Below are positions 34,565 to 63,955 of a stretch of 64,000 bases of DNA, piece after piece. The position numbers and the translations under genes were made by a program. Position 1 is the stretch's first letter, and every line of letters begins with the position of its first letter. The stretch lies in the NCBI GenBank assembly GCA_001603665.1, contig LUZN01000020.1:1-64000 (forward strand), in the 5' to 3' direction. The notes under the pieces are model-generated. The model had not been told where the DNA came from. It worked only from the letters and a program-made list of their open reading frames with translations, and did no database searches. This DNA comes from Bacteroidales bacterium Bact_22 (GTDB lineage Bacteria; Bacteroidota; Bacteroidia; Bacteroidales; F082).

Positions 34565-35980
34565 ATGAACAAAGTTTTTGACGGACTGCGACCATTTCAG
34601 AAAGCGGAGTTGCTGATAATGATGTTTTTGGCAATGGCGATACCGTTTCACTGGCTCGCGGCGCAATATTTCGAGGTAGCGTTGTTTGTGTGCGCCGTCT
34701 TGAAGCTCATTTTCGATCAGAAATTCAAGCTTAACGAGCAGCAGTTGAAGCTGAAATGGGCATATATTATCTTTGCTTTGACGTGGTTTATCTACCTCAT
34801 CGGGATGTTTTGGACGCAGAACACCTCGGTAGGCTGGGCACAGGTGAGCAAGAAGCTCGGATTCCTGATTTTCCCAGTGATATTTGTCATTTCCGACATG
34901 TCGTATATCAACAAAACCAGACTTAAAGCCATCGGAAATGCCTTGGTTTTGGGCTGCATACTGTTCTTCCTGATGCACCTGGTTTATGCCATCTACGACG
35001 TGATCTTCAACGGAGCCACAACAGCGCGTTTCTTCGACGCCGACCTCATGAAACTCTACTATGTGCATCACAGTTACCTCTCGATGTACGCCGGTCTCGG
35101 ACTGATGTTCTGTTTTATGGAAATTTTCGGCGAAAATAGTCGTAAAGTAAAGATATTCAATATCTTAGCTTATATCACTCTTGTTATTTTCGTCATCCTG
35201 ATCCGGTCGAGAGCGGGCTTGCTTTGCATGGTTCTGCTTTTCATTCTGCAGTGGATTTGGCTCACTTTCATCATGAAAAAGAAGAAATTGGGCACGATAA
35301 TGGGATGTGTTTTCCTTGCGGCTGTCATCGCCACGATTGTCGTTTTCCCCAGCAGTGTCGCGCGAATCACCACGACAATCAAGGATTTGACGACGGAGCA
35401 TGCCAACGACCACCGCATGGTGCAGTATAAAGGTTACAAGCCGGTGATGCAGGAAAACTGGCTCTTCGGCGTGGGTACTGGCGACCGCACCGACGCTACG
35501 CAGGAGGCATATCAGGTTTATAAGAAGGATATCATCGAGAAAATCGGTCAGCAGATAGCGTTTCAGATTGACATGATTACCGCTTGCGACTACTACGAAC
35601 CTACCGACGAGATGCGCGCCGACATGCAGAAGCTGGCCTTGAAATACGGTCGCGATCCAGAGGTGGTGAATGCGTATCTTGTTGATTATCTGTATATTAA
35701 CTTCGCTATAGATAAAGGCATCAACGCGCATAATCAGTTTTTCGAGACGCTGATAAGCGTAGGAATCATCGGAGTGATACTGCTGCTGGCTTACTTCGTG
35801 GTGCCGCTGATTTTATGGATAAAGAGAAAGCGCTGCGATATGTTGTACTTCTCGTTTTTGCTGATGATAGGCTTTAACATGCTGTTTGAGTCGGTGTTTG
35901 AAGTGCAAATGGGGATAATATTTTTCGCTTTCTTTAATTCTCTGCTATTCCTGTTGTCATTTCGTGGACAGGAGGAGTAG
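34565..35980 (+). CDS. O-antigen ligase/polymerase (Wzy/WaaL)-like protein
   Basis: 471 aa polytopic; HNQFFETLISVGIIGVILLLAYF, loop HRMVQYKGYKPVMQENWLFGVGTGD. Confidence 0.85.
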   Translation: MNKVFDGLRPFQKAELLIMMFLAMAIPFHWLAAQYFEVALFVCAVLKLIFDQKFKLNEQQLKLKWAYIIFALTWFIYLIGMFWTQNTSVGWAQVSKKLGFLIFPVIFVISDMSYINKTRLKAIGNALVLGCILFFLMHLVYAIYDVIFNGATTARFFDADLMKLYYVHHSYLSMYAGLGLMFCFMEIFGENSRKVKIFNILAYITLVIFVILIRSRAGLLCMVLLFILQWIWLTFIMKKKKLGTIMGCVFLAAVIATIVVFPSSVARITTTIKDLTTEHANDHRMVQYKGYKPVMQENWLFGVGTGDRTDATQEAYQVYKKDIIEKIGQQIAFQIDMITACDYYEPTDEMRADMQKLALKYGRDPEVVNAYLVDYLYINFAIDKGINAHNQFFETLISVGIIGVILLLAYFVVPLILWIKRKRCDMLYFSFLLMIGFNMLFESVFEVQMGIIFFAFFNSLLFLLSFRGQEE

Positions 35981-36030: not shown

Positions 36031-36043
36031 AAAAGTATTGAAT

Positions 36044-37750
36044 ATGAAAAAGTTTTTATTGATTGTTGGTTTGTTAGTGACTGCTTGCTTTGCAAGAGGT
36101 CAGGAGTTGCTGATTCCGTTGAATGACGATTACGAGATGGAGGTGCAGACGGCGGCTTACAGCTCCGATCATCTGTTTCACACTGCGATGCGAGGTTGGT
36201 CGGAGTCGATGTTCGACGGCATTATCAACCTCGACAGTATCAATGAGTTATATCGCATTCCGATTCATAAAAAAGGAAAGTTTTCGAATTATATCCTGAA
36301 TTCGTTGCTTAACGACGACTTCGTGAGGGTGAAAAACGACGATTATTACGTCGCCATCAATCCTTTTATCGATTTTCAGATTGGAAGCGACGGTCACCGC
36401 ACCACTTGGGTGAACACTCGAGGCGCTGAGATTAAAGGAACTATTGGAAAGTCATTCGCTTTTTATGCCGCTGCCCGCGAAAACCAGGCAGTTTTTCCGA
36501 TTTATATCGACGATTATTGCACAAAAGTAAAAGTCACCCCAGGTCAGGGCCTTGCCAATCGTTTCAAGAAGACAGGTCGTGATTACACCAATGCGGCGGC
36601 TTATGTGGCTTATCGTCCGGCCAAGTGGTTTGATGCGACTTTAGGTTACGGAAAGAACTTCATCGGCGACGGCTACCGCTCGATGATGCTCTCCGACAAT
36701 GCCGCAAACTACCCGTATTTTAAGGTGAAAGCGGAGTTTTGGCGTGTGCAGTACACCTGCCTGTATGCTCAGCTTACCGACCGCAACACTGTGATGGCCG
36801 ACAACACCTTCGCACGTAAGTGGATGGTGGTGCATTATCTCGATTTTGCTGTCACAAAACGCTTGAATATCGGCTTTTTCGACGCTGTGATGGCTTCGGC
36901 TCAGACTCACCAGGAGGTGATGGTCAACGACTCGACTACAGCGACCATCGACATGCGCCGAGGCTTTGATTTTCAATACATTAACCCGATTATCTTCCTA
37001 CGCTCAGCCGAATATTACGCCGGCTCATCGCCCGACAATGCCTTGCTCGGCTTGAATGCCAGCTTGATTGTCGGCAAACACACCACAATCTACGGACAGT
37101 TCGTCCTCGACGAGATGACGGTTCACAGATTCATTGCACGTAAAGGCTATTCGGGAAATAAGCAATCGTATCAGCTCGGTATCAAGAGCTACGACTGCTT
37201 TGGAGTAAAGAATCTTTTCCTGCAACTCGAAGGAAACATTGTAAGACCTTACATGTATTCGCATTCTTCGCTTCATACTCAAAAATCTATTGGCGAAGAC
37301 AATTACGCACATTACAACGAGCCGCTGGCACATCCTTGGGGAGCAAATCTCTGGGAGGCTGTAGCGCGTGCCCAATACAACTGGAATCGCTGGTATTTCC
37401 AGTATAAATTGAATTACGGACAATATGGCGACGACTGGGATGTGAAAAACAACGAGTGGGCCAATTACGGTCACAGCGTGTATAGCGATTACACCACCGC
37501 CATTCCTCTGGATTGGGACGAAAACGGCAATGATACGCACGATGGTCATTATCTCCTTACGGGAAGAAAGACGACGCTGATGATGAACGACGTGATAGTG
37601 TCGTATATGGTCAATCCGAGGTATAACATGAATATTTTTGTGGAGGCTACACATCGTCACTTTGCGGCGCAAGGTCTTGATACTCAAAGCGATTTCATCT
37701 TCAGCTTTGGCATCAGGTCGAGTTTGGACAGAAAATATTACGATTTTTGA
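36044..37750 (+). CDS. Capsule assembly Wzi-family outer membrane protein
   Basis: About 568 aa; signal peptide MKKFLLIVGLLVTACFARGQ; beta-barrel repeats, GYGKNFIGDGYRSMMLSDNAANYPYFKV. Confidence 0.8.
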   Translation: MKKFLLIVGLLVTACFARGQELLIPLNDDYEMEVQTAAYSSDHLFHTAMRGWSESMFDGIINLDSINELYRIPIHKKGKFSNYILNSLLNDDFVRVKNDDYYVAINPFIDFQIGSDGHRTTWVNTRGAEIKGTIGKSFAFYAAARENQAVFPIYIDDYCTKVKVTPGQGLANRFKKTGRDYTNAAAYVAYRPAKWFDATLGYGKNFIGDGYRSMMLSDNAANYPYFKVKAEFWRVQYTCLYAQLTDRNTVMADNTFARKWMVVHYLDFAVTKRLNIGFFDAVMASAQTHQEVMVNDSTTATIDMRRGFDFQYINPIIFLRSAEYYAGSSPDNALLGLNASLIVGKHTTIYGQFVLDEMTVHRFIARKGYSGNKQSYQLGIKSYDCFGVKNLFLQLEGNIVRPYMYSHSSLHTQKSIGEDNYAHYNEPLAHPWGANLWEAVARAQYNWNRWYFQYKLNYGQYGDDWDVKNNEWANYGHSVYSDYTTAIPLDWDENGNDTHDGHYLLTGRKTTLMMNDVIVSYMVNPRYNMNIFVEATHRHFAAQGLDTQSDFIFSFGIRSSLDRKYYDF

Positions 37751-37777: not shown

Positions 37778-38683
37778 ATGACATTCAGAAGAAAAGTTAC
37801 CGATTTCATTCAGGCACTCATGATGAAAAACAGCTTCACCGCTGATCTCATCATGAGAGTCAGCTACAGACATCATTCCGGGCATAAGCTGAACCTCGAG
37901 AACCCGCAGACGTGGTCGGAAAAGCTCATTTGGCTCAACAAATACTGGCAGCCCGAACTGAAATCGATAGGTGCCGACAAATACGCCGCGCGCGATTATA
38001 TCAAGAGTAAAGGTCTCGACGACATCCTCCTCGACCTCTACGGCGCCTGGGACGATGCCGATAAGATTGATTTTGAAGCACTTCCGCAGCGTTTCGTGAT
38101 GAAATGCAACCATGGATGCGGCTATAACATCATTGTCGAAGACAAGAAAGACCTCGACGTGCAGAAAAGCGTGAAACAGCTGAAGGAATGGATGAAAGTC
38201 GACTGGGGCGCTGTGACACCTGAGCGGCACTATCATTACATCAAGCCGATGATTATCTGCGAACAGTTCCTGCCGGTGAAAGATTACCGCGAGGTGAAGG
38301 ATTATAAGGTACATTGCTTCAACGGCGAGCCGAAGTTCATCGGTGTGTGCTACGACCGCGACATTGTGACGCGTCACTCGAAAGGCGCCATCTACTCGAC
38401 CGACTGGAAACGACTGTTTTTGCTGAAGGACGACGACCCTAATGACGACGGCAACGTCGAGAAACCTGAGGCTCTCGACAGGCTCATCGAGGTGGCGAAG
38501 AAGCTCTCTGAAGGCATCCCTTATGTGAGAGTCGACCTCTACGCTGTCGGCGAGCGCGTGTTCTTCGGCGAGATGACGTTCTCACCCGACGGCAACGTGC
38601 TCGACCGCGAATACACCTACGAGACGACGGTCGAGATGGGCAAATATATTGATTTACCTGAAAAAATTAGCAGAAAATGGTAA
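37778..38683 (+). CDS. TupA-like ATP-grasp protein
   Basis: 301 aa; TWSEKLIWLNKY, ADKYAARDYIKSKGL, FVMKCNHGCGYNIIVEDK, CEQFLPVKDYREVKDYKVHCFNGEPKFI, FGEMTFSPDGN. Confidence 0.82.
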   Translation: MTFRRKVTDFIQALMMKNSFTADLIMRVSYRHHSGHKLNLENPQTWSEKLIWLNKYWQPELKSIGADKYAARDYIKSKGLDDILLDLYGAWDDADKIDFEALPQRFVMKCNHGCGYNIIVEDKKDLDVQKSVKQLKEWMKVDWGAVTPERHYHYIKPMIICEQFLPVKDYREVKDYKVHCFNGEPKFIGVCYDRDIVTRHSKGAIYSTDWKRLFLLKDDDPNDDGNVEKPEALDRLIEVAKKLSEGIPYVRVDLYAVGERVFFGEMTFSPDGNVLDREYTYETTVEMGKYIDLPEKISRKW

Positions 38684-39888
38684 AAAAGAAACAACTTGTA
38701 GTTTGCGGAGGCGGCAGCAGCGCCCACACGCTGATACCGTTTTTGAAAGACTCCGATTTTGAGGTGTCGATATTCACTTCAAAACCCGAAAAATGGCATC
38801 ACACCATCGAGCTTCAATACCAATCGCCCGACGGGAAGGTGCTCGCGACGTTTTCAGGTCCGCTGAAAAAAGCCTCCAGCAACGCTGCGGAGATCATCCC
38901 CGACGCCGACTACATAGTGTTTTGCATGCCAGTGCACAAATACAGGCTCGGACTTGAGGAGATCGCGCCGTATATCAACAGAAACAAGACCGTTTTCCTG
39001 GGCACCATGTACGGTCAGGGTGGCTGGAACTGGATGGTAAATGAAATCAAGCAGAAGTATTCGTACGACAACATCGTGACCTTCGCTTTCGGCCTCATTC
39101 CTTGGATTGCTAGGACCATTGAATATGGCAAGATAGGCGTCACCTACGGCTGCAAAGCTGCAAATTACGCCGCCTGTTACCCGAAATCGTATTTCAAGCA
39201 GATCGACGAGGAGTTTTTTGAGAATATATGTAAAAAATGGTTCGGGAAAGGCGCTGTGGAGCAGAGCGAAAACTTCATCTCGCTGACGCTTTCGGTCGAT
39301 AACCAGATAATTCACACCTCGCGCTGCTTCGGCTTGTATAAGGTTTATGGCCGTTATTGGAAAGAGAAGTCGGAAGTGCCAATGTTTTATAGGGATTACG
39401 ACGATATCTCGGCTAATCTGCTTGCCGATTTGGATAATGATTACACTAAGATAAGAGAAGAGATAAAAAGGCGCTATCCGCAGGAAAACTTCAAGTATAT
39501 GCTTGATTATCTGGCACTTGAGCGTTTTTCATATCAGTCGCATAACACCGACATCAAAGAGTCGTTCATCAACTCGCAGACGCTGGTGGCCATAGGCACG
39601 CCGGTGATTCAGAACAAAGAAGGCCTGTGGGAGATCAACAACAACTACAGGTTCTTCATGGACGACATCTACTATGGTAACTGCATTGCCAAGTGGATGG
39701 CTGAGCAGCTGAACATTGAGGTTCCGACCATCGACGCTATACTGCGTTGGGCACAGATGGTCAGAAATGAGCAGATTATCGATGAAAACGGTCGCCTGAT
39801 GATTGAAAATGAATGTCTTAGCGCGCCGTATAAGTCGGGAGTGCCTTGTTTTTACGGATTTAAAACCATCGAAGATATTATAGACTGA
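38677..39888 (+). CDS. NAD/NADP octopine/nopaline dehydrogenase-like protein
   Basis: 403 aa; N-terminal Rossmann VVCGGGSSAHTLIPFL, C-terminal VAIGTPVIQNKEGLWEINNNYRFFMDDIYYGNCIAKWMAEQLNIEVPTIDAILRWAQ; overlaps ATP-grasp gene by 7 nt. Confidence 0.75.
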   Translation: MVKKKQLVVCGGGSSAHTLIPFLKDSDFEVSIFTSKPEKWHHTIELQYQSPDGKVLATFSGPLKKASSNAAEIIPDADYIVFCMPVHKYRLGLEEIAPYINRNKTVFLGTMYGQGGWNWMVNEIKQKYSYDNIVTFAFGLIPWIARTIEYGKIGVTYGCKAANYAACYPKSYFKQIDEEFFENICKKWFGKGAVEQSENFISLTLSVDNQIIHTSRCFGLYKVYGRYWKEKSEVPMFYRDYDDISANLLADLDNDYTKIREEIKRRYPQENFKYMLDYLALERFSYQSHNTDIKESFINSQTLVAIGTPVIQNKEGLWEINNNYRFFMDDIYYGNCIAKWMAEQLNIEVPTIDAILRWAQMVRNEQIIDENGRLMIENECLSAPYKSGVPCFYGFKTIEDIID

Positions 39889-41333
39889 TGTCGTTAGGTC
39901 AACAGACGGTTAGCGGAGTGGCTTGGACCACGGTGCAGCGATTTGTCACGCTTTTCCTGGCGTTTGTGGCGAATCTCGTGCTTGCCCGTCTGCTTTCGCC
40001 CGACGATTTCGGCTGCATAGCCCTGCTGATGGTTTTCATCTCGCTGTCGCAGATATTTGTCGACGGCGGCTTCGGCGCGGCTTTGATACAGAAGAAAGAG
40101 CCCACGCAGGCCGACTATTCCACCATTTTCTACTGGAACCTGCTGCTCGCGCTGGGATTGTATTTCCTGCTGTTTTTCTGCGCGCCCGTCATCGCCAGAT
40201 ACTACGAGATACCAATTCTCAAAGACATCTTGAGGGTTCAGGGCTTGATTATCATCCTCGACTCGTTTGGACTTGTCCACAAGAACAACCTCCGCAAGAC
40301 GCTGCAGTTTAAGAAGATATCGCTGATAGTCCTGGGCGCCAACTTCATCGCTGTGGTTGTGGCTATCACCATGGCTTACAACGGCTTCGGAGTATGGTGC
40401 CTAGTCGCTCAGCAGCTGCTGATAAGCGGCATGACGACGGCTTTGTTCTGGATTTTCAACAGGTGGAAGCCGTCGCTGGTGTTCAGCAAGCAGTCGTTCA
40501 AAGAACTGTTCGGCTTCGGCGGGTTCATACTTCTTTCGAATATGATTGTGACCTTTACAAATGAGGTTCAATCACTTATCATGGGTAAGCTTTACACAGC
40601 GAGGGACGTCGGACTCTATTCGCAGGCGCGTAAGTTTGAGTCGATAATGTCGGGTACACCGTCGACTGTCGTGAATCAGGTGACGTTCCCGGTTTTCTCG
40701 AAGTTTCAGAACGACATACCGCAGCTGACAAACATCTTGCGAAGAATCACCAAAGTGATGGCTTTTGTGGTGTTTCCAGCGATGATATTAGTGATTTTGA
40801 TAGCAAAGCCTGCCATTGTGCTGATGCTCACCGACAAATGGGTCGACTGCGTGCCGTTTTTCCAGATTCTGTGTATCGGAGGCATGGCCGAGGCGCTTGG
40901 CGACATCAACTACAACGCGGTGGCGGCCATCGGCAAGAGCAGGGTTTTGTTTAGGTGGACGTGCATCAAGTCGGTGTTGGGCATACTGCTGATCGTCGGC
41001 GGCTCGTTTTTCGGCGTGAGGGGGATAATCTGGGCGGTGACAATACGCTTTTACCTTGTTTTCCTGATACATGCGTCGCTGGCGGCACATTATCTCAATT
41101 TCAACATATTCACTCAGCTGAAGGATTTGTTTGAGATAGCGCTCGTCTCGGCGGCGGCCGGTGCGTTGGCGTATATCGTCAGCACTAAGCTCTTTATGAG
41201 TTTGAATATGTACTATCTCGCTGGCATTCAGATAGTTATCTACGCTGTGGCATATTTCCTGTTGGCTTATGTGTTCAGCAAGCCGATGTTCGGCGAGGTG
41301 AAATATATAATCGGGATGTTTAAGAAAAGATGA
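39888..41333 (+). CDS. Polysaccharide flippase (Wzx-like, MOP superfamily)
   Basis: 481 aa; SGVAWTTVQRFVTLFLAFVANLVLARLLSPDDFGCIALLMVF...DGGFGAALIQKK. Confidence 0.92.
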   Translation: MSLGQQTVSGVAWTTVQRFVTLFLAFVANLVLARLLSPDDFGCIALLMVFISLSQIFVDGGFGAALIQKKEPTQADYSTIFYWNLLLALGLYFLLFFCAPVIARYYEIPILKDILRVQGLIIILDSFGLVHKNNLRKTLQFKKISLIVLGANFIAVVVAITMAYNGFGVWCLVAQQLLISGMTTALFWIFNRWKPSLVFSKQSFKELFGFGGFILLSNMIVTFTNEVQSLIMGKLYTARDVGLYSQARKFESIMSGTPSTVVNQVTFPVFSKFQNDIPQLTNILRRITKVMAFVVFPAMILVILIAKPAIVLMLTDKWVDCVPFFQILCIGGMAEALGDINYNAVAAIGKSRVLFRWTCIKSVLGILLIVGGSFFGVRGIIWAVTIRFYLVFLIHASLAAHYLNFNIFTQLKDLFEIALVSAAAGALAYIVSTKLFMSLNMYYLAGIQIVIYAVAYFLLAYVFSKPMFGEVKYIIGMFKKR

Positions 41334-42430
41334 AGATTTGCTGCATTTTCAATATGGCCCCGCATTACCGTATGCCGATTTTCTCGAAGATGAGCGAGAA
41401 TTTCGACTGTGATTTCTATTTCGGCGACCATATGCAGCAGCCGATTAAGAAGCTGAATTACAACGAGTTACAAGGATTTAAGAAGGAGTTTCACAACGTC
41501 TTTTTCGGGAATTCTTTTTATTGGCAAAGAAAATCCGTCAGACTTGCTTTCAAGAAATACGATTATTTTCTGCTGAGCGGCGAGCCGTTTTGTATCTCAT
41601 ATTGGTTTATCTTGTTGATAGCCAAGTTGTTAGGAAAGAAAACAGTCACTTGGACGCATGGTTTTTACGGCAGGGAAAGCGGCATTAAAAAGGTAGTAAA
41701 GAGAGCGTTTTTCAAACTTTTCACCAAGATAATGGTCTATACCGATTATTCCATCGATTTGATGAAAAAAGAAGGTATCAAACCAGAGAAAATGTTTTGC
41801 ATTGCGAACTCTTTAGATACTGATAATCAGTTAGTTATAAGAAAGAAGCTTAAGAAGACAGATATTTTCACTTCGCATTTCGGCAACGACGATCCGGTGA
41901 TGATGTACATCGGGAGGATTCAGAAGATTAAGCGTCTGGATTTGTTGGTTGAGAGTTTTTATAAGCTTAAAAATGAAGGTGTGAAATGCAACCTTCTGAT
42001 TGTCGGGAAAGATGATGAAAATGTCGATTTGCCAAAGATTATCAATGAGTTAGGATTGGAAGACTCGGTTTGGTTATATGGTCCGTGTTACGATGAGGAG
42101 GCGATTGGGGAGATGTTTTACAACTCTGCGGTCTGTGTCTCGCCTGGCAATGTCGGCCTGACTTCGATACATGCCCTGACGTATGGCTGTCCGGTGGTGA
42201 CGCACGACAATTTCCCGTACCAAATGCCTGAGTTTGAGGCGATTACGCCTGATGTCACCGGCAGTTTCTTCAAGATGGACGACGTTGACGATCTGACCGA
42301 AAAGATTCGTTTTTGGCTTGAAAAGTCGACTGATGAGCGCGAAGCGACACGGTCGGCGGCCTACCGAACGATTGATGAGAAGTGGAACATACATTACCAG
42401 CTTGAGGTGATGAAAAAAGTTTTTGTGTGA
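41330..42430 (+). CDS. Glycosyltransferase family 4-like
   Basis: 366 aa; MYIGRIQKIKRLDLLVESFYKLKNEG, CVSPGNVGLTSIHALTYGCPVVTHDN. Confidence 0.87.
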   Translation: MKICCIFNMAPHYRMPIFSKMSENFDCDFYFGDHMQQPIKKLNYNELQGFKKEFHNVFFGNSFYWQRKSVRLAFKKYDYFLLSGEPFCISYWFILLIAKLLGKKTVTWTHGFYGRESGIKKVVKRAFFKLFTKIMVYTDYSIDLMKKEGIKPEKMFCIANSLDTDNQLVIRKKLKKTDIFTSHFGNDDPVMMYIGRIQKIKRLDLLVESFYKLKNEGVKCNLLIVGKDDENVDLPKIINELGLEDSVWLYGPCYDEEAIGEMFYNSAVCVSPGNVGLTSIHALTYGCPVVTHDNFPYQMPEFEAITPDVTGSFFKMDDVDDLTEKIRFWLEKSTDEREATRSAAYRTIDEKWNIHYQLEVMKKVFV

Positions 42431-43644
42431 TGCCGAAGATTATCCAGATAAACACCGCTTTGAACTGTGGCTCGCACGGTAGAATCGTGGAGCAGATTTC
42501 GCGTGTGGCCGCCGACCGTGGCTTCGACACGACGATAGTCCATGGCGCGCGTTATCTGAATAAGTCGCAATTCGCTGATATTCAGACGACTACAAAAAAC
42601 CAGGAGAGGCTGAATGGGGTGAGAAGTCTGCTGTTCGACGCTCACGGATTAGGATTGAAATGTGCGACAAAGTCGTTGATAGTCAAGATGAAAGAGATAA
42701 AGCCCGACATCGTTCATCTGCATAACATCCACGGGTATTATCTGAACTACAAGATTTTGTTCGATTATCTCGCCGAGAGCGGCGTTCCGGTGGTGTGGAC
42801 TCTCCACGACTGCTGGAGCATGACGGGCCATTGTTCGCAGTTTGAGAACTACAATTGTGACAAATGGAAGACGCAATGTTATGATTGTCAGCACCTTATG
42901 GATTGGTATCCGAAGTCGATAATCGACAGGTCGAAGCGCAATTTTGAGTTGAAGAAACAATGTTTTACCTCGGTGAAAAACATGACGATAGTGCCCGTCT
43001 CACACTGGCTGGAAGATGTAGTGAAGCAGTCATTTCTCGCGAAATTCCCAATAAAAGTTATCAACAACGGCGTCGATTTATCGTTGTTCCAACCACGTAG
43101 GGACACATCGAATGTGTCTGCGATTGGCGCCAAATTCACCATCCTAGGCGTCGCCTCCAATTGGGACGACGATAAAGGCGTGAAAGAGTTTGTGCAGTTG
43201 TCGCAGAACCCTGATTATCAGGTGATTATGGTCGGAGTGAATGATAAGTTGAGCAAGCGGCTGCCGGATGCGATTATCAAAGTGGCGAGGACTAACAGTC
43301 AGGAGGAGCTGGCGAAGTATTATTCGATGGCCGATGTGTTTGTGAATCCGACATATAAAGACACTTTCCCGACGACTAACCTCGAGGCACTGGCTTGCGG
43401 AACGCCAGTGATTACTTACAAAACCGGCGGCAGTCCCGAGTCTATCACTCCTGAAACTGGTATCGTGGTCGAAAAAGGTGATTTCGGTCAGCTTTGCGAG
43501 GCCATCGAGACCATCCGAAAGAACGGAAAGAGTTGTTATTCAGAGAGTTGCAGGGAGCGGGCCGAGAAGTTTTACAATAAAGACGATCGTTTTAAAGATT
43601 ATATCGATTTGTATGAAAATATCCTTGATAACAGTCACGTTTAA
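42430..43644 (+). CDS. Glycosyltransferase family 4-like
   Basis: About 404 aa; VVWTLHDCWSMTGHCSQFENYNCDKW, FVNPTYKDTFPTTNLEALACGTPVITYKTGGSPE; ATG at 42430 preferred over GTG at 42427. Confidence 0.88.
   Translation: MPKIIQINTALNCGSHGRIVEQISRVAADRGFDTTIVHGARYLNKSQFADIQTTTKNQERLNGVRSLLFDAHGLGLKCATKSLIVKMKEIKPDIVHLHNIHGYYLNYKILFDYLAESGVPVVWTLHDCWSMTGHCSQFENYNCDKWKTQCYDCQHLMDWYPKSIIDRSKRNFELKKQCFTSVKNMTIVPVSHWLEDVVKQSFLAKFPIKVINNGVDLSLFQPRRDTSNVSAIGAKFTILGVASNWDDDKGVKEFVQLSQNPDYQVIMVGVNDKLSKRLPDAIIKVARTNSQEELAKYYSMADVFVNPTYKDTFPTTNLEALACGTPVITYKTGGSPESITPETGIVVEKGDFGQLCEAIETIRKNGKSCYSESCRERAEKFYNKDDRFKDYIDLYENILDNSHV
43097..43122 (+). repeat. Palindromic GTAGGGAC-type repeat inside a glycosyltransferase gene
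   Basis: GTAGGGACACATCGAATGTGTCTGCG; GACACAT/ATGTGTC stem; resembles 3395-3426 and 51408-51432. Confidence 0.55.
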
Positions 43645-44374
43645 CAGTGCCGAGACCTTGCGCGACACCATGCAAAGTGTTCTTAATCAGACGTTTAAGG
43701 ACATCGACTACATCATTGTCGACGGCAACTCGAAGGATGGCACCTTGGACATCGTGAAGGAGTTCGAGCCTAAGTTCGAAGGCCGGTTGCGCTGGGTTTC
43801 CGAACCCGACAAGGGCATCTACGACGCCATGAACAAAGGAGTGAAGATGGCCCAGGGCGACGTGGTGGGGATCCTCAACAGCGACGACTTCTTTGCATCG
43901 GACCACGTGCTGCAGACGGTTGCCGACGCTTTTGCCGGAAACCCAGCGCTGGAAGGCGTCTACGCCGATGTGCGTTACGTCAACTGGCACGACACCACGA
44001 AGACCGTGAGGATGTTTTCGGGTAAGGACTTTAAGCGTGAGAAACTATGTTGGGGAAAGATGCCGCCGCATCCGTCGTTCTACGTGAAGCGCAGCTGCTA
44101 CGACCGTTTCGGTCTCTATAGCCTCGACTACCCGATATGTTCCGACTACGACATGTTTGTCAAGATGATATGGGTCGGCAACATCAACACATTGTATATC
44201 AACGATGTATTTGTCAACATGCGGAGCGGCGGCACCTCGTCGAACGGCATCAGAGTGCATCGTAAGATAATGCGCGAAAGGGTGCGCTGCGTGCGCGAAC
44301 ACAAGATGCCAAGCAACTTCTTCAAGCAAAACTGGCGTTATTTCGAGAGAATTATAAGTCTGATAAAAAAATAA
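43613..44374 (+). CDS. Glycosyltransferase family 2
   Basis: MKISLITVTFNSAETLRDTMQSVLNQTFKDIDYIIVDGNSKDGT, ILNSDDFFAS; start reset to 43613. Confidence 0.92.
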   Translation: MKISLITVTFNSAETLRDTMQSVLNQTFKDIDYIIVDGNSKDGTLDIVKEFEPKFEGRLRWVSEPDKGIYDAMNKGVKMAQGDVVGILNSDDFFASDHVLQTVADAFAGNPALEGVYADVRYVNWHDTTKTVRMFSGKDFKREKLCWGKMPPHPSFYVKRSCYDRFGLYSLDYPICSDYDMFVKMIWVGNINTLYINDVFVNMRSGGTSSNGIRVHRKIMRERVRCVREHKMPSNFFKQNWRYFERIISLIKK

Positions 44375-44380
44375 TTACAA

Positions 44381-45745
44381 ATGAAAGAGAAACTAAAATA
44401 CTTCTACATCCTGGTCTGCAACATCCTCATCACGATGATTGCGGCCGTCCCTTACATTTGGATATGGCACAAATACCTTAACCAATTGCTGTTCAAGGAG
44501 TTCCTCTTCAAAGGAAACTACGCGATGTATTTCATCTACATCGTCTTTGTGATTGTTTTTGTCAATATGTTCGGCGGCTACAAGCTGAACGTGAGCAAAA
44601 AATCGAACGTGCTGCTGTCGCAATGCGTCGGATTGCTGTGCGTCAACATCTGCGAGATCATGATCACCGACCTGATGGTGGGATATTTCTGGATGATACC
44701 ACGACTCTCCGTGTATTTCCTGCAGATTTTCATCGTTCAGGTTGTGCTTCTTTTCCTTTTCACGATAGTGATTATCGTAGTCTACCGCAAGACTTTCCCG
44801 CCTTACAACGTGCTTCACATTTATGGAAGTTATAAAAACAACCTTAAAGAGAAGATGATGGATAGAGGCGATAACTATCAGATAGTCAAGGAGATATATT
44901 GCTTGGATGCACTTGAGGATTTGATTAACCTGATTCAACCTTACGACCTGATTCTTGTCAACGACGTGCCCACCGAGGTGCGAAATAAGATTTTGAAGGC
45001 TTGTTTCAAGAATAACAAAAAGGTCTACATCACCCCGAAGATTTCGGATATCATCATCCGCGGATGCGAAAATCTGGCCGTCTTCGACACGCCTTTGCTG
45101 TTTGCCAATGACACCGTGCTAACCATCCCGGAGCGCATAGTGAAACGCAGTTTCGACATCTTCCTTTCGGCAATAGGATTGATAGTGCTTTCGCCGATAA
45201 TGATACTCGTCTCGCTGGCTATTTTCTGCTACGACAGAGGTCCTGTGTTTTATCGTCAGACGCGATACACCAAAGGCGGAAAGACCTTTAAAATCTTGAA
45301 GTTCCGCAGCATGATACCCGATGCCGAGAAGGATGGCGTGGCGCGTCTGGCTTCAGAGAATGACGACCGCATCACGCCTATCGGAAAGTTCCTGAGAGCC
45401 TGCCGTCTCGACGAGCTCCCGCAGTTTTTCAACATACTTGCGGGCGACATGAGCTTCGTGGGACCGCGTCCCGAACGCCCGGAGATTGCTGATGAATACA
45501 CCAAGGAGGTGCCTGAGTTTGCCTTCCGTCTACGTGTCAAGGCCGGACTGACGGGCTACGCGCAGGTGTTCGGAAAATACAACACCACCTCGTACGACAA
45601 GCTCAAACTCGACATGATCTACGTCGAGCACGCCTCGCTGCTCACCGACCTGAAGCTTTTGCTTCTCACCTTGAAGGTCATCTTCATTAGAGAAAGCACC
45701 GAGGGCCTGGAAAAAGGACAGATAACAGCTTCAAACAAGAAATGA
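44381..45745 (+). CDS. Polytopic undecaprenyl-phosphate sugar phosphotransferase (WcaJ/WbaP type)
   Basis: 454 aa; N-terminal TM region; KRSFDIFLSAIGLIVLSPIMILVSLAI, YTKGGKTFKILKFRSMIPDAEKDG, LDELPQFFNILAGDMSFVGPRPERPE. Confidence 0.93.
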   Translation: MKEKLKYFYILVCNILITMIAAVPYIWIWHKYLNQLLFKEFLFKGNYAMYFIYIVFVIVFVNMFGGYKLNVSKKSNVLLSQCVGLLCVNICEIMITDLMVGYFWMIPRLSVYFLQIFIVQVVLLFLFTIVIIVVYRKTFPPYNVLHIYGSYKNNLKEKMMDRGDNYQIVKEIYCLDALEDLINLIQPYDLILVNDVPTEVRNKILKACFKNNKKVYITPKISDIIIRGCENLAVFDTPLLFANDTVLTIPERIVKRSFDIFLSAIGLIVLSPIMILVSLAIFCYDRGPVFYRQTRYTKGGKTFKILKFRSMIPDAEKDGVARLASENDDRITPIGKFLRACRLDELPQFFNILAGDMSFVGPRPERPEIADEYTKEVPEFAFRLRVKAGLTGYAQVFGKYNTTSYDKLKLDMIYVEHASLLTDLKLLLLTLKVIFIRESTEGLEKGQITASNKK

Positions 45746-46494
45746 CGCCGCTGGTTTCCATAATAATGCCTAGCTACAACGCCGAGCGCTACATCGCGCA
45801 GAGCATTGAGTCGGTTTTGTCGCAGACCTACACCAATTGGGGACTGATAATCACCGATGGTCCGTCATCCGACAAAACAGCAGCAATTGCAAAAGAATAT
45901 TGCGATAAGGACGATCGCATACATCTGATAGTTCCTCAGCAACATCAAGATATTGCGGAGGCTCGCCACACTTCTATCCAAAATTCCAAAGGAAGATTTT
46001 TGGCTTTTCTTGACAGTGATGATATTTGGGTGAAAGATAAGCTCGAGAGGCAAGTTGCATTTATGCTTGAACATGACTATGCGTTTACTTACTCCGATTA
46101 TCAAACTATAGATTCAGATGGGAACTTGACGGGTAAAACAATTCATAATGGCGGTGTGGTTGATTACCATAAATATCTGAGAAACACAATCATAGGATGT
46201 GGCAGCGTGATGATTGATACTGAAAAAGTTGGACAGATACTTTTGCCGTCAAACGAGGTGAATGACGACATGGGTTTATGGTGTTCGTTGTTCAGAACAG
46301 GCATCAAGGCATATCCTATCGACGAGGTTATGTATTATTATCGCATCAGGAACGACGGAGCGTCGAGTCAAAGGTTTAAAATGATGCGAAGTGTTTGGAA
46401 AGTGTATAGAAAACAAGAAAAAATGTCATTTTTAAAATCGACTTCTTGTTTTATGAGTTATGCTTATCATGCTATAAAAAAGCGCATAAAATAG
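45742..46494 (+). CDS. Glycosyltransferase family 2
   Basis: 250 aa; PLVSIIMPSYNAERYIAQSIESVLSQTYTNWGLIITDGPSSDKT, FLDSDDIWVKDKLE. Confidence 0.92.
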   Translation: MTPLVSIIMPSYNAERYIAQSIESVLSQTYTNWGLIITDGPSSDKTAAIAKEYCDKDDRIHLIVPQQHQDIAEARHTSIQNSKGRFLAFLDSDDIWVKDKLERQVAFMLEHDYAFTYSDYQTIDSDGNLTGKTIHNGGVVDYHKYLRNTIIGCGSVMIDTEKVGQILLPSNEVNDDMGLWCSLFRTGIKAYPIDEVMYYYRIRNDGASSQRFKMMRSVWKVYRKQEKMSFLKSTSCFMSYAYHAIKKRIK

Positions 46495-47288
46495 TGTTCG
46501 GTTATTTCATATATCGTCATGCTTGGAGATATGCTTTAGCTCCTGATAAAGAATCGCAACTTACTGATTCTCAATGCAAAGCATTGCTGAAAAATGGCGG
46601 ATGGATGATTCGTAATACTTTTGATTTCGATTGTAATACACCTACTGATTTTTGGTACTTGATAAAGGATTCGTATGGAGGAATGGAGGAGCTTACTAAA
46701 AACAATAGGCAGAAGATACGTAAAGCATTCAGATTGCTGGAATTTAAGCTTGTCGATAAGAGTCTTATTGCAGAAAAAGGATACGAAATCACTCAAAAAA
46801 CATACGATGATTATAGGATTAAGGACAGAAGGATGAATAAAAGGATCTTTAATGATCTTTTACAATTATGGGATGAAAAAACTTATGATTTTTGGGGATT
46901 TTTTGATAGAAAAGACGGCCGTTTGATAGGATTTTGTGTCATAAAAGTCTTTGATGACTGTTGTTTGTATGATACGGTGTGTGTGTTGCCTGAGTATAAA
47001 TATAATAAGTCGGGAGTTTATTATGGGAAATACCATATAACAAACGAATATTATTTAAAAGAGAAACATTTCAAATATGTATTTGACGGCACGCGTACCA
47101 TCACCGAACACTCTAATATTCAAGAGTTTTTAGTACAGAATTTTAATTTTCGAAGAGCTTATTGCAAGCTTCAAATCAAATATAAATGGTGGTTTGGAAT
47201 CATTGTGAGGCTGTTGCTGCCGTTTAGAAAGATTATTAAAAATAGAAATGTCAGGGCGGTTCTTAATATGCATTTGATGCAGTCGTAA
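46494..47288 (+). CDS. GNAT/FemAB-like acyltransferase domain protein
   Basis: Frame extends 46446-47288; probable GTG start in TAGTG overlap; GGMEELTKNNRQKIRKAFRLLE, FWGFFDRKDGRLIGFCVIKVFDDCCLYDTVCVLPEYKYNKSGVYYGKYH. Confidence 0.6.
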   Translation: MFGYFIYRHAWRYALAPDKESQLTDSQCKALLKNGGWMIRNTFDFDCNTPTDFWYLIKDSYGGMEELTKNNRQKIRKAFRLLEFKLVDKSLIAEKGYEITQKTYDDYRIKDRRMNKRIFNDLLQLWDEKTYDFWGFFDRKDGRLIGFCVIKVFDDCCLYDTVCVLPEYKYNKSGVYYGKYHITNEYYLKEKHFKYVFDGTRTITEHSNIQEFLVQNFNFRRAYCKLQIKYKWWFGIIVRLLLPFRKIIKNRNVRAVLNMHLMQS

Positions 47289-47335: not shown

Positions 47336-47923
47336 ATGGTATTTAAGTATATTTTTGATCGGATTTTTGCATTTTTGGGTTTGATAATATTATCACCTGT
47401 CATTTTCGTCATTTTTATTCTTCATAAGATAAGAATGCCGAGGGGAAGATTTGTTTATAAGCAGGTGAGGGTTGGAAAGAATGCGAAGCTGTTTAAAATC
47501 TATAAGATCCGTACTATGGCCGATGATTCGGAAGCCGATTGCACTGTGACGACAGCCGATGATTCGAGGATTACGCGGTTTGGGCATTGGCTTCGCGAGA
47601 CCAAGGTCGACACGTTTTTGGAGCTCATTAATATATTAATAGGTGACATGAGTTTTGTGGGTCCGCGTCCCGATGTGCCGGGCTATGCCGACAATCTCGA
47701 AGGCGACGACAGAGTGATTTTGAAGATGCGTCCCGGACTGACTGGTCCGGCCTCGATAAAATATCGTCATGAAGATAAAATCTTGGCTCAACAAAACGAC
47801 CCAAAACGCTATAATGACGAAGTTATTTGGCCCGATAAGGTAAAAATCAACAAAGGATACTACGAAAACTGGTCGATTTGGCGCGATATTACGATACTTT
47901 GGAAAACCGTTTGGGGAAGATAA
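47336..47923 (+). CDS. Short phosphoglycosyl transferase (PglC-like sugar transferase)
   Basis: 195 aa; FDRIFAFLGLIILSPVIFVIFILHKIRMPRGRFVYKQVRVGKNAKLFKIYKIRTM, FLELINILIGDMSFVGPRPDVPG. Confidence 0.92.
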   Translation: MVFKYIFDRIFAFLGLIILSPVIFVIFILHKIRMPRGRFVYKQVRVGKNAKLFKIYKIRTMADDSEADCTVTTADDSRITRFGHWLRETKVDTFLELINILIGDMSFVGPRPDVPGYADNLEGDDRVILKMRPGLTGPASIKYRHEDKILAQQNDPKRYNDEVIWPDKVKINKGYYENWSIWRDITILWKTVWGR

Positions 47924-62089: not shown

Positions 62090-62638
62090 ATGAATATCAT
62101 TGAAAAAAACGCTTTAGCATGGTATGTTTTGCGCGTGACTTATCAGCGCGAGATAGCGGCATCGAAGGCTTTGGAGGAACTTGGCATTGAGCATTATGTG
62201 CCGACGGTGAGGATGCGCATCCGTAACGAGAAAGGCGTGGCGACGGGTTGGAAAGTCGAGCCTTTGGTGCACAACTACATCTTCATTCACGACACGTTCG
62301 AAAATATCAAGAAGCTGAAGCAGAGCAAGCTCGACTATCTGCGTTTCATAATGGCGAAGGACGATGCGGGGATGATGAGCGTGCCGCAGTACGTGCCCGA
62401 CAAGCAGATGAGCGATTTCATCATGGTGGTGCAGACCATGGGGTCGAAGCCGGTTGATCCGGATATTGACCTTCGTAAAGGTGACCGCGTGAGGATTCTG
62501 ACCGGTCCGTTTGAGGGTGTTGAGGGCGTTTACGTTAGGATGCCAAACAGACACGAGAAACGCGTGGTGATTAAGATCGAAGGCGTAGCCGCTGTAGCAA
62601 CGGTAGCGATTAACGCCTCGGATGTAGAGAAGATTTAG
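62090..62638 (+). CDS. NusG-like transcription antiterminator (UpxY family)
   Basis: 182 aa; AWYVLRVTYQREIAASKALEELGIEHYVPTVRM, LRKGDRVRILTGPFEGVEGVYVRM (KOW). Confidence 0.88.
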   Translation: MNIIEKNALAWYVLRVTYQREIAASKALEELGIEHYVPTVRMRIRNEKGVATGWKVEPLVHNYIFIHDTFENIKKLKQSKLDYLRFIMAKDDAGMMSVPQYVPDKQMSDFIMVVQTMGSKPVDPDIDLRKGDRVRILTGPFEGVEGVYVRMPNRHEKRVVIKIEGVAAVATVAINASDVEKI

Positions 62639-62656
62639 CTTATAATCTCATAAACT

Positions 62657-63955
62657 ATGAATATAGCAGTAGCAGGAACAGGATATGTAGGATTAAGTAT
62701 CGCTACATTATTAGCTCAGCATAATCACGTTACCGCAGTTGATGTGGTGCCGGAGAAAGTTGAATTGATCAACAACAAGAAATCTCCGATTCAGGATGAG
62801 TATATCGAGAAATATCTCGCCGAGAAAAAGCTCGATTTGACAGCCACTCTCGATGGCGAGAAGGCATATAAAGATGCCGAATTCGTTGTCATTGCAGCTC
62901 CGACCAACTACGACCCGGTGAAGAATTTCTTCGACACGACTCACGTTGAGGAGGTGATCGACTTGGTTTTGAAAGTTAATCCGGATGCCACGATGGTGAT
63001 TAAGTCGACCATTCCGGTAGGATACACGAGAAGTCTGTATGTGAAATATGCAGCGAAGGGCGTGAAGAAGTTCAACCTGCTGTTCTCGCCGGAGTTTTTG
63101 CGCGAGAGCAAGGCGTTGTACGACAACCTCTATCCTTCGAGAATCATCGTCGGTTATCCTAAGGAAATCGATGGTTTCGATGAGGAAAACAAGGCTATCA
63201 AGAAGGTTGTGAGCGTGAATCTTGAGGAGAAAGCCAAGACTTTCGCCAAACTTTTGCAGGAAGGTGCTATCAAAACCGACATCCCGACGCTGTTTATGGG
63301 CATGAAGGAAGCCGAGGCAGTGAAGTTGTTTGCAAACACTTATCTCGCTTTGCGTGTGTCGTATTTCAATGAGCTTGATACATACGCAGAGGTAAAAGGA
63401 CTTGATACTCAAGCTATTATCGATGGTATTTGTCTCGACCCACGTATCGGCTCTCATTATAACAACCCTTCGTTTGGTTATGGCGGTTATTGCTTGCCGA
63501 AGGATACGAAGCAACTTTTGGCCAACTATGCCGATGTGCCTCAGAACATGATGAGCGCTATTGTTGAGAGTAACCGTACCCGTAAGGATTTCATTGCCGA
63601 TCAGGTGTTGAAGAAAGCCGGTTACTACGACTATTACGACAACGGCAGTTACAACGCCAAGGAAGAGAAAGAATGCACAATCGGAGTTTATCGTTTGACG
63701 ATGAAATCGAATTCAGACAACTTCCGCCAGAGCTCAATCCAGGGTGTGATGAAGCGCGTGAAAGCCAAGGGCGCTAAGGTTATCATCTATGAGCCGACAC
63801 TTGAAGATGGCTCAACATTCTTTGGCTCATTGGTGGTTAACGATTTGAAGAAATTCAAAGAGCAAAGCCAAGCTATCATAGCCAACCGTTATGATTCTTG
63901 CCTTGATGATGTGATTGGAAAAGTTTATACGAGAGATATTTTTAAACGCGACTAA
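62657..63955 (+). CDS. UDP-glucose/UDP-sugar 6-dehydrogenase
   Basis: 432 aa; [81 protein letters not shown]. Confidence 0.93.

Follow-up and report, generated by a model that had tools for sequence, protein, structure and literature searches.

In the 64,000-nt stretch of Bacteroidales DNA analysed here (the window), two overlapping forward-strand genes encode a TupA-like ATP-grasp amidoligase of 301 aa (37778..38683) and an opine-dehydrogenase-like protein of 403 aa (38677..39888). They probably form a cassette that decorates a Wzx-dependent surface polysaccharide with an opine amide, in which an opine of a diamino acid would be linked by the TupA-like enzyme to a uronic acid. The initial annotation had proposed that the dehydrogenase makes an opine and that the ligase attaches it to a glycan through an amide, and this proposal is supported because the dehydrogenase has the fold and the catalytic residues of octopine dehydrogenase, because a ligase adjoins it almost without exception across 22 loci, and because the TupA-type Cj1438C sets a precedent for the amide (PMC11800379). 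The adjacency of the dehydrogenase to exchangeable ligases is the strongest result of the analysis. The chemistry of opine-bearing glycans is known from a small number of O-antigens of Proteus and Providencia. Each of the enzyme families is already known, as is each chemical outcome (opine O-antigens and TupA-type uronate amidation). The literature searched, which covered few subscription journals, yielded no description of a dehydrogenase–ligase pairing with exchangeable ligases and a link to an ornithine module, and no opine dehydrogenase was recognised there in O-antigen or capsule clusters.

The pair lies inside a run of genes in one direction, which extends from a Wzy/O-antigen-ligase-like membrane protein (34565..35980, +, PF04932, E 7e-10) to a second sugar transferase (47336..47923, +, PF02397, E 6e-52). 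Both reading frames start with ATG and stand, with their 7-nt overlap and the quoted motifs, where the initial annotation had placed them; the overlap (gap -7) is kept in three relatives (L016, L036, L037). The dehydrogenase frame ends in TGATG, its stop codon overlapping the start codon of the next gene at 39888, whose description as Wzx-like holds good (Wzx-type MOP flippase, 39888..41333, +, PF13440, E 4e-94, TuaB/PRK10459-like). This is followed on the same strand by two GT4-type glycosyltransferases (41330-42430 and 42427-43644, PF00534), a GT2-type glycosyltransferase (43583..44374, PF00535, E 2.5e-26), a bacterial sugar transferase, or initiating phosphoglycosyltransferase (44381..45745, PF02397, E 6e-64), another GT2-type enzyme (45742..46494, PF00535, E 4e-33) and a protein with no Pfam match (46500..47288) that is syntenic in the cluster of L016, L018 and L019. 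The whole cluster is kept in four further genomes of the window's genus, with 93-95% identity for TupA, 91-92% for the dehydrogenase and 53-65% for several glycosyltransferases.

The gene directly upstream of the pair encodes a putative secreted or outer-membrane-like protein of 568 aa (36038..37750, +), which is found at the same place in relatives and is 80-92% identical in L016, L018, L019 and L027. Its earlier label, Wzi-like, finds no backing in Pfam or, when a profile of four homologues is used, in the PDB. Fucose-pyrophosphorylase-like and GHMP-kinase genes are inserted between this 'wzi' gene and TupA in L018:7167-9597 and in L019. Another species of the genus has, at the corresponding chromosomal capsule locus, a different PF02317 gene (L027:9713-10735, 24% identical) in the TupA–dehydrogenase place behind the 'wzi' gene, a replacement that we read as a cassette exchange.

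The dehydrogenase matches PF02317 with 76 bits (cut-off 30, E 4e-21), and phmmer aligns its residues 7-399 with the octopine dehydrogenase of Pecten maximus (3c7a, E 3e-16). Its AlphaFold2 model, for which 28 relatives were aligned, reaches a mean pLDDT of 94 and shows a two-domain Rossmann plus helical fold, for which the top Foldseek matches are 3iqd, 3c7d, 3c7a and 1bg6, the first being octopine dehydrogenase (E 5e-28, TM 0.80). The likeness to the Pecten enzyme (3c7a, 3c7d, 3iqd) therefore covers the full length, the fold and the His/Asp, Arg and Gln positions, although identity is about 20% and the window's protein differs in its glycan-cluster context and in the pocket residues discussed below. 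The second-best distinct enzyme is the carboxyethyl-norvaline dehydrogenase of Arthrobacter (CENDH/ArODH, 1bg6, E 2e-19), a member of the same family that is about 45 residues shorter and 16% identical in the structural alignment; it is followed by the staphylopine, yersinopine and pseudopaline enzymes.

Residues H212, R324, D329 and Q118 of octopine dehydrogenase correspond to H213, R325, D330 and Q114 of the window's protein, and H213, R325 and D330 are invariant both in a 26-row alignment that includes octopine dehydrogenase and in a 28-row alignment. The catalytic His/Asp dyad (H213, D330) is kept together with the nearby R325, and its loss, which the initial annotation had named as a ground for giving up the proposal, is ruled out by this invariance across aligned homologues. 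Judged by the alignment, the arginine pocket of octopine dehydrogenase is not reproduced: E142, M206 and W278, which presumably shape it, are replaced by G139, V207 and a gap, so that an amino acid other than arginine is expected. The different pocket could also fit an enzyme acting on the sugar itself, either on an amino sugar plus an oxoacid or on a keto sugar plus an amino acid, with no free opine being made. This is hardly to be expected of a protein that keeps the catalytic His, Asp and Arg, whose relative in L043 is followed by an ornithine module, and which is almost constantly accompanied by a ligase that direct alkylation of a sugar does not need. Returning to the free opine, nearly all TupA-/PaaK-type loci retain the motifs near H213 (SVDNQIIHTSRC) and after D277 (YLALERFSY), and in most loci of these types the active-site segments are 82-86% identical to the window's (77% in L053) and the whole protein 65-72%. 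These motifs are shifted in the PylC/PF14397 subclade, and hence the substrate there may differ.

The TupA-like protein scores 164 bits against PF14305 (cut-off 25, E 5e-48) and is encoded by the sole such gene in the window's genome. Its AlphaFold2 model (pLDDT 86) has D-Ala-D-Ala ligase, LysX/ArgX and RimK as best Foldseek matches (E ~1e-6 to 1e-4, TM 0.4-0.5), and sequence searches of the PDB with the protein and with its profile gave no useful match. Residues K109, K177, R251, D253 and E265 are invariant in the TupA alignment, and the conserved Lys and acidic residues are likely to occupy the ATP-grasp and metal-site positions. The founding member of PF14305 is TupA of Bacillus halodurans (teichuronopeptide), which is implicated in a polyglutamate/glucuronate polymer that is not known to contain an opine. 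Amide formation on a uronic acid has been demonstrated for a single TupA-type enzyme, Cj1438C of the Campylobacter jejuni capsule, which amidates glucuronic acid at its C6 carboxylate (PMC11800379). Cj1438 has in common with the window's enzyme a TupA-like ATP-grasp in a capsule cluster, but its domain is fused to a glycosyltransferase, it uses serinol-P or ethanolamine-P, and no opine dehydrogenase has been described with it (PMC11800379).

A scan of genome contigs gave 27 dehydrogenase loci, mostly of rumen Bacteroidales and including two Acidobacteriota, the bearers of the dehydrogenase being mostly rumen and gut bacteria. Once copies of at least 95% identity were dropped, 22 non-redundant loci of the dehydrogenase's own clade remained (57-93% identity), and their ligase families were assigned by Pfam, NCBIfam and PDB profile. 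A same-strand ligase stands immediately upstream of the dehydrogenase in 20 of these 22 loci, against a background of 16 of 345 for the other genes in these loci (Fisher p 3e-21, for loci that are not strictly independent). These ligases are TupA in 10 loci, PF14397 (ATPgrasp_ST, a 'sugar-transfer associated' ATP-grasp) in four, a PaaK-like adenylate-forming enzyme in four and a CPSase/PylC-like enzyme in two. In the two exceptions a ligase lies directly downstream (L062) or TupA lies three genes downstream (L042). When the ligase types are mapped on a maximum-likelihood dehydrogenase tree, no fewer than nine changes are required (mean of 12.2 when shuffled); the association therefore outlives replacement of the ligase. 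The co-conservation that had been anticipated is thus borne out, but not the idea of TupA as the sole partner: TupA is one of several ligase families, and about half of the dehydrogenase's relatives use a non-TupA ligase, so the TupA-only proposal is corrected and widened here. Conversely, most TupA genes of the bacterial family occur without a dehydrogenase of this clade (TupA above cut-off in 37 of 173 genomes, a full-length clade dehydrogenase in 10 of 173).

It could be argued that the dehydrogenase has a metabolic or redox role, or belongs to opine utilisation or to a metallophore pathway, and that its position in the cluster is incidental, as PF02317 members do occur in other contexts, including a siderophore-type operon of Proteus with IucA/IucC and a TonB receptor. 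This is very unlikely, given that an upstream ligase is found in 20 of 22 glycan loci despite repeated ligase exchange and that the surroundings of the window's pair yielded no siderophore or transport genes. That Proteus mirabilis match (strain H63, L110:3514-13497), once taken as a candidate O-antigen locus, is a siderophore-type operon in which the PF02317 gene is accompanied by IucA/IucC, a TonB receptor, a PALP enzyme, a decarboxylase, an MFS protein and a binding protein.

The link of opine dehydrogenase to ligase is broader than the window's clade, since a second PF02317 clade (~360 aa, ~25% identity), found in this bacterial family and in one more of the same order, immediately follows a ligase of the PylC type or of PF14397 in the glycan clusters of L093, L094, L096, L099, L108 and L109. 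Tentatively, the loci may be regarded as a modular Bacteroidales system, in which a conserved opine dehydrogenase is combined with four interchangeable ligase families to place the same or a similar opine on different sugar acceptors, with its own ornithine pathway in at least one species, and in which opines would recur as a surface-glycan decoration among rumen and gut bacteria. In L093, L094, L096 and L108 the order is a CPSase/PylC-like ATP-grasp, the short PF02317 dehydrogenase and a ~621-aa protein with no Pfam match; this order, with the ~621-aa protein behind the short PF02317 gene, is also seen in another family of the order.

In the TupA loci the acceptor is likely a uronic acid. Five of 10 TupA loci have a UDP-sugar 6-dehydrogenase (UDP-glucose or UDP-GlcNAc type) within two genes upstream of TupA: it is the immediate upstream neighbour in L045, L046 and L047 and is separated from TupA by a single gene in L040 and L060; among the non-TupA loci it is nearby in L052 only, a weak difference (Fisher p 0.06). 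Its presence per genome was set aside as evidence, since it occurs in 26 of 27 genomes and in 13 of 14 controls and is therefore uninformative, so that local adjacency alone counts. The uronic acid acceptor postulated earlier thus gains support from the five relatives in which the gene adjoins the pair, but not from the gene to which the initial annotation had turned, the UDP-glucose 6-dehydrogenase-like gene at 62657..63955 (+; TIGR03026 above cut-off; NF011631 533 bits, below the cut-off of 757). This gene is real, but it lies ~23 kb from the pair, behind an UpxY antiterminator that opens another capsule-type cluster; it is a possible source of UDP-glucuronate, though unlinked to the pair. 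The second capsule-type cluster, opened by the UpxY-type antiterminator and the UDP-glucose 6-dehydrogenase (window 62090-63955; likewise in L030), extends past the end of the window.

For PaaK-like and CPSase/PylC-like ligases, the substrate to be activated is usually a small acid. Such small-carboxylic-acid ligases are found at about half of the loci (the CPSase/PylC-like ones also in the second dehydrogenase clade), and the window's own cluster has no UDP-sugar 6-dehydrogenase; both facts would fit an arrangement in which the opine is made likewise and the ligase activates the opine's own carboxylate to acylate an amino sugar. Such a product exists, as the alanopine on Qui4N of Providencia alcalifaciens O35 (PMC10609480). 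For the window's pair this is unlikely, as the uronic acid is the substrate activated by TupA-type enzymes of known activity (PMC11800379) and half of the TupA loci have a UDP-sugar 6-dehydrogenase beside the pair. The non-TupA loci may well work in this way, acylation of an amino sugar being at least as likely a fit there.

Under the uronic acid reading, the opine would derive from a diamino acid; for the amino acid, which the initial annotation had left open, a candidate is suggested by L043:11306-16124 (the same as the L022 locus), where ArgC, a GNAT protein, ArgJ, ArgB and ArgD follow directly behind TupA and the dehydrogenase, on one strand, with gaps of at most 99 nt and glycosyltransferases on both sides. 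This module represents a complete glutamate-to-ornithine pathway within a glycan cluster; the gene behind the dehydrogenase had been taken for an aspartate-semialdehyde dehydrogenase, which is wrong, as it is ArgC. L043, whose genome is 80% complete, is the sole relative with the module, and its genome alone in the window's genus has ArgJ (173 genomes of the bacterial family searched). A search for argininosuccinate synthase gave no clear match in the L043 genome, which has one weak match of 19.7 bits, or in the window's genome; the L043 ornithine therefore probably serves the glycan. The window's cluster has no ornithine module, and ArgJ and ArgC were not found in its genome. Its dehydrogenase is 84% identical to that of L043 in the active-site segments (70% overall), and from this resemblance ornithine may be its substrate as well.

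To our knowledge, the PF02317 enzymes studied so far alkylate the alpha-amine, and the solved relatives of the dehydrogenase take free amino acids as substrates. The latter point weighs against a reversed order, in which the ligase would couple a plain diamino acid to the uronic acid and the dehydrogenase would then alkylate the remaining amine on the precursor. The gene order, ligase then dehydrogenase, agrees with this sequence of events but is no proof of reaction order, and the reversed course seems quite improbable. It would directly yield the connectivity of Providencia rustigianii O14, described as N-epsilon-(1-carboxyethyl)lysine amide-linked to GalA, that is, with the amide on the alpha-N and the carboxyethyl group on the epsilon-N (PMC10609480). 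Alkylation at the epsilon-amine sets the O14 opine apart from the alpha-amine chemistry mentioned above, a discrepancy that counts against the favoured reading. In O14 and O35, which belong to a different phylum, the opine amide is known from structures (PMC10609480), whereas here it is predicted from genes.

In the favoured scheme, with a free opine formed before the amide, the dehydrogenase would reductively condense a diamino acid, most likely ornithine and possibly lysine, with a 2-oxoacid, for example pyruvate; the product would be an N-(1-carboxyalkyl) amino acid with one amine left free. TupA would then use ATP to activate a uronic-acid residue at its C6 carboxylate and join this carboxylate to the free amine; alternatively, the dehydrogenase could act after amide formation, on the amine of the side chain. 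Wzx would flip the repeat unit so decorated, and polymerisation would follow. The substrates, the linkage and the sequence of the steps are thus predictions from the genes.

If the model is correct, an opine dehydrogenase directly behind a ligase would be a genomic signature from which opine glycans could be predicted, and opine dehydrogenases would join the toolbox of glycan modification. Many rumen and gut Bacteroidales would be predicted to carry charged, opine-like surface groups, likely relevant to phage binding, host lectins and immune recognition, and ornithine becomes a testable candidate substrate for the dehydrogenase clade. Two further arrangements were seen among the scanned loci: clade dehydrogenases in tandem with no ligase alongside in an Acidobacteriota genome (L059:9992-12588), and, in L028:8520-12768, a row composed of an ornithine-cyclodeaminase-like gene, a PF02317 gene, a YdjC-like gene and a second PF02317 gene.
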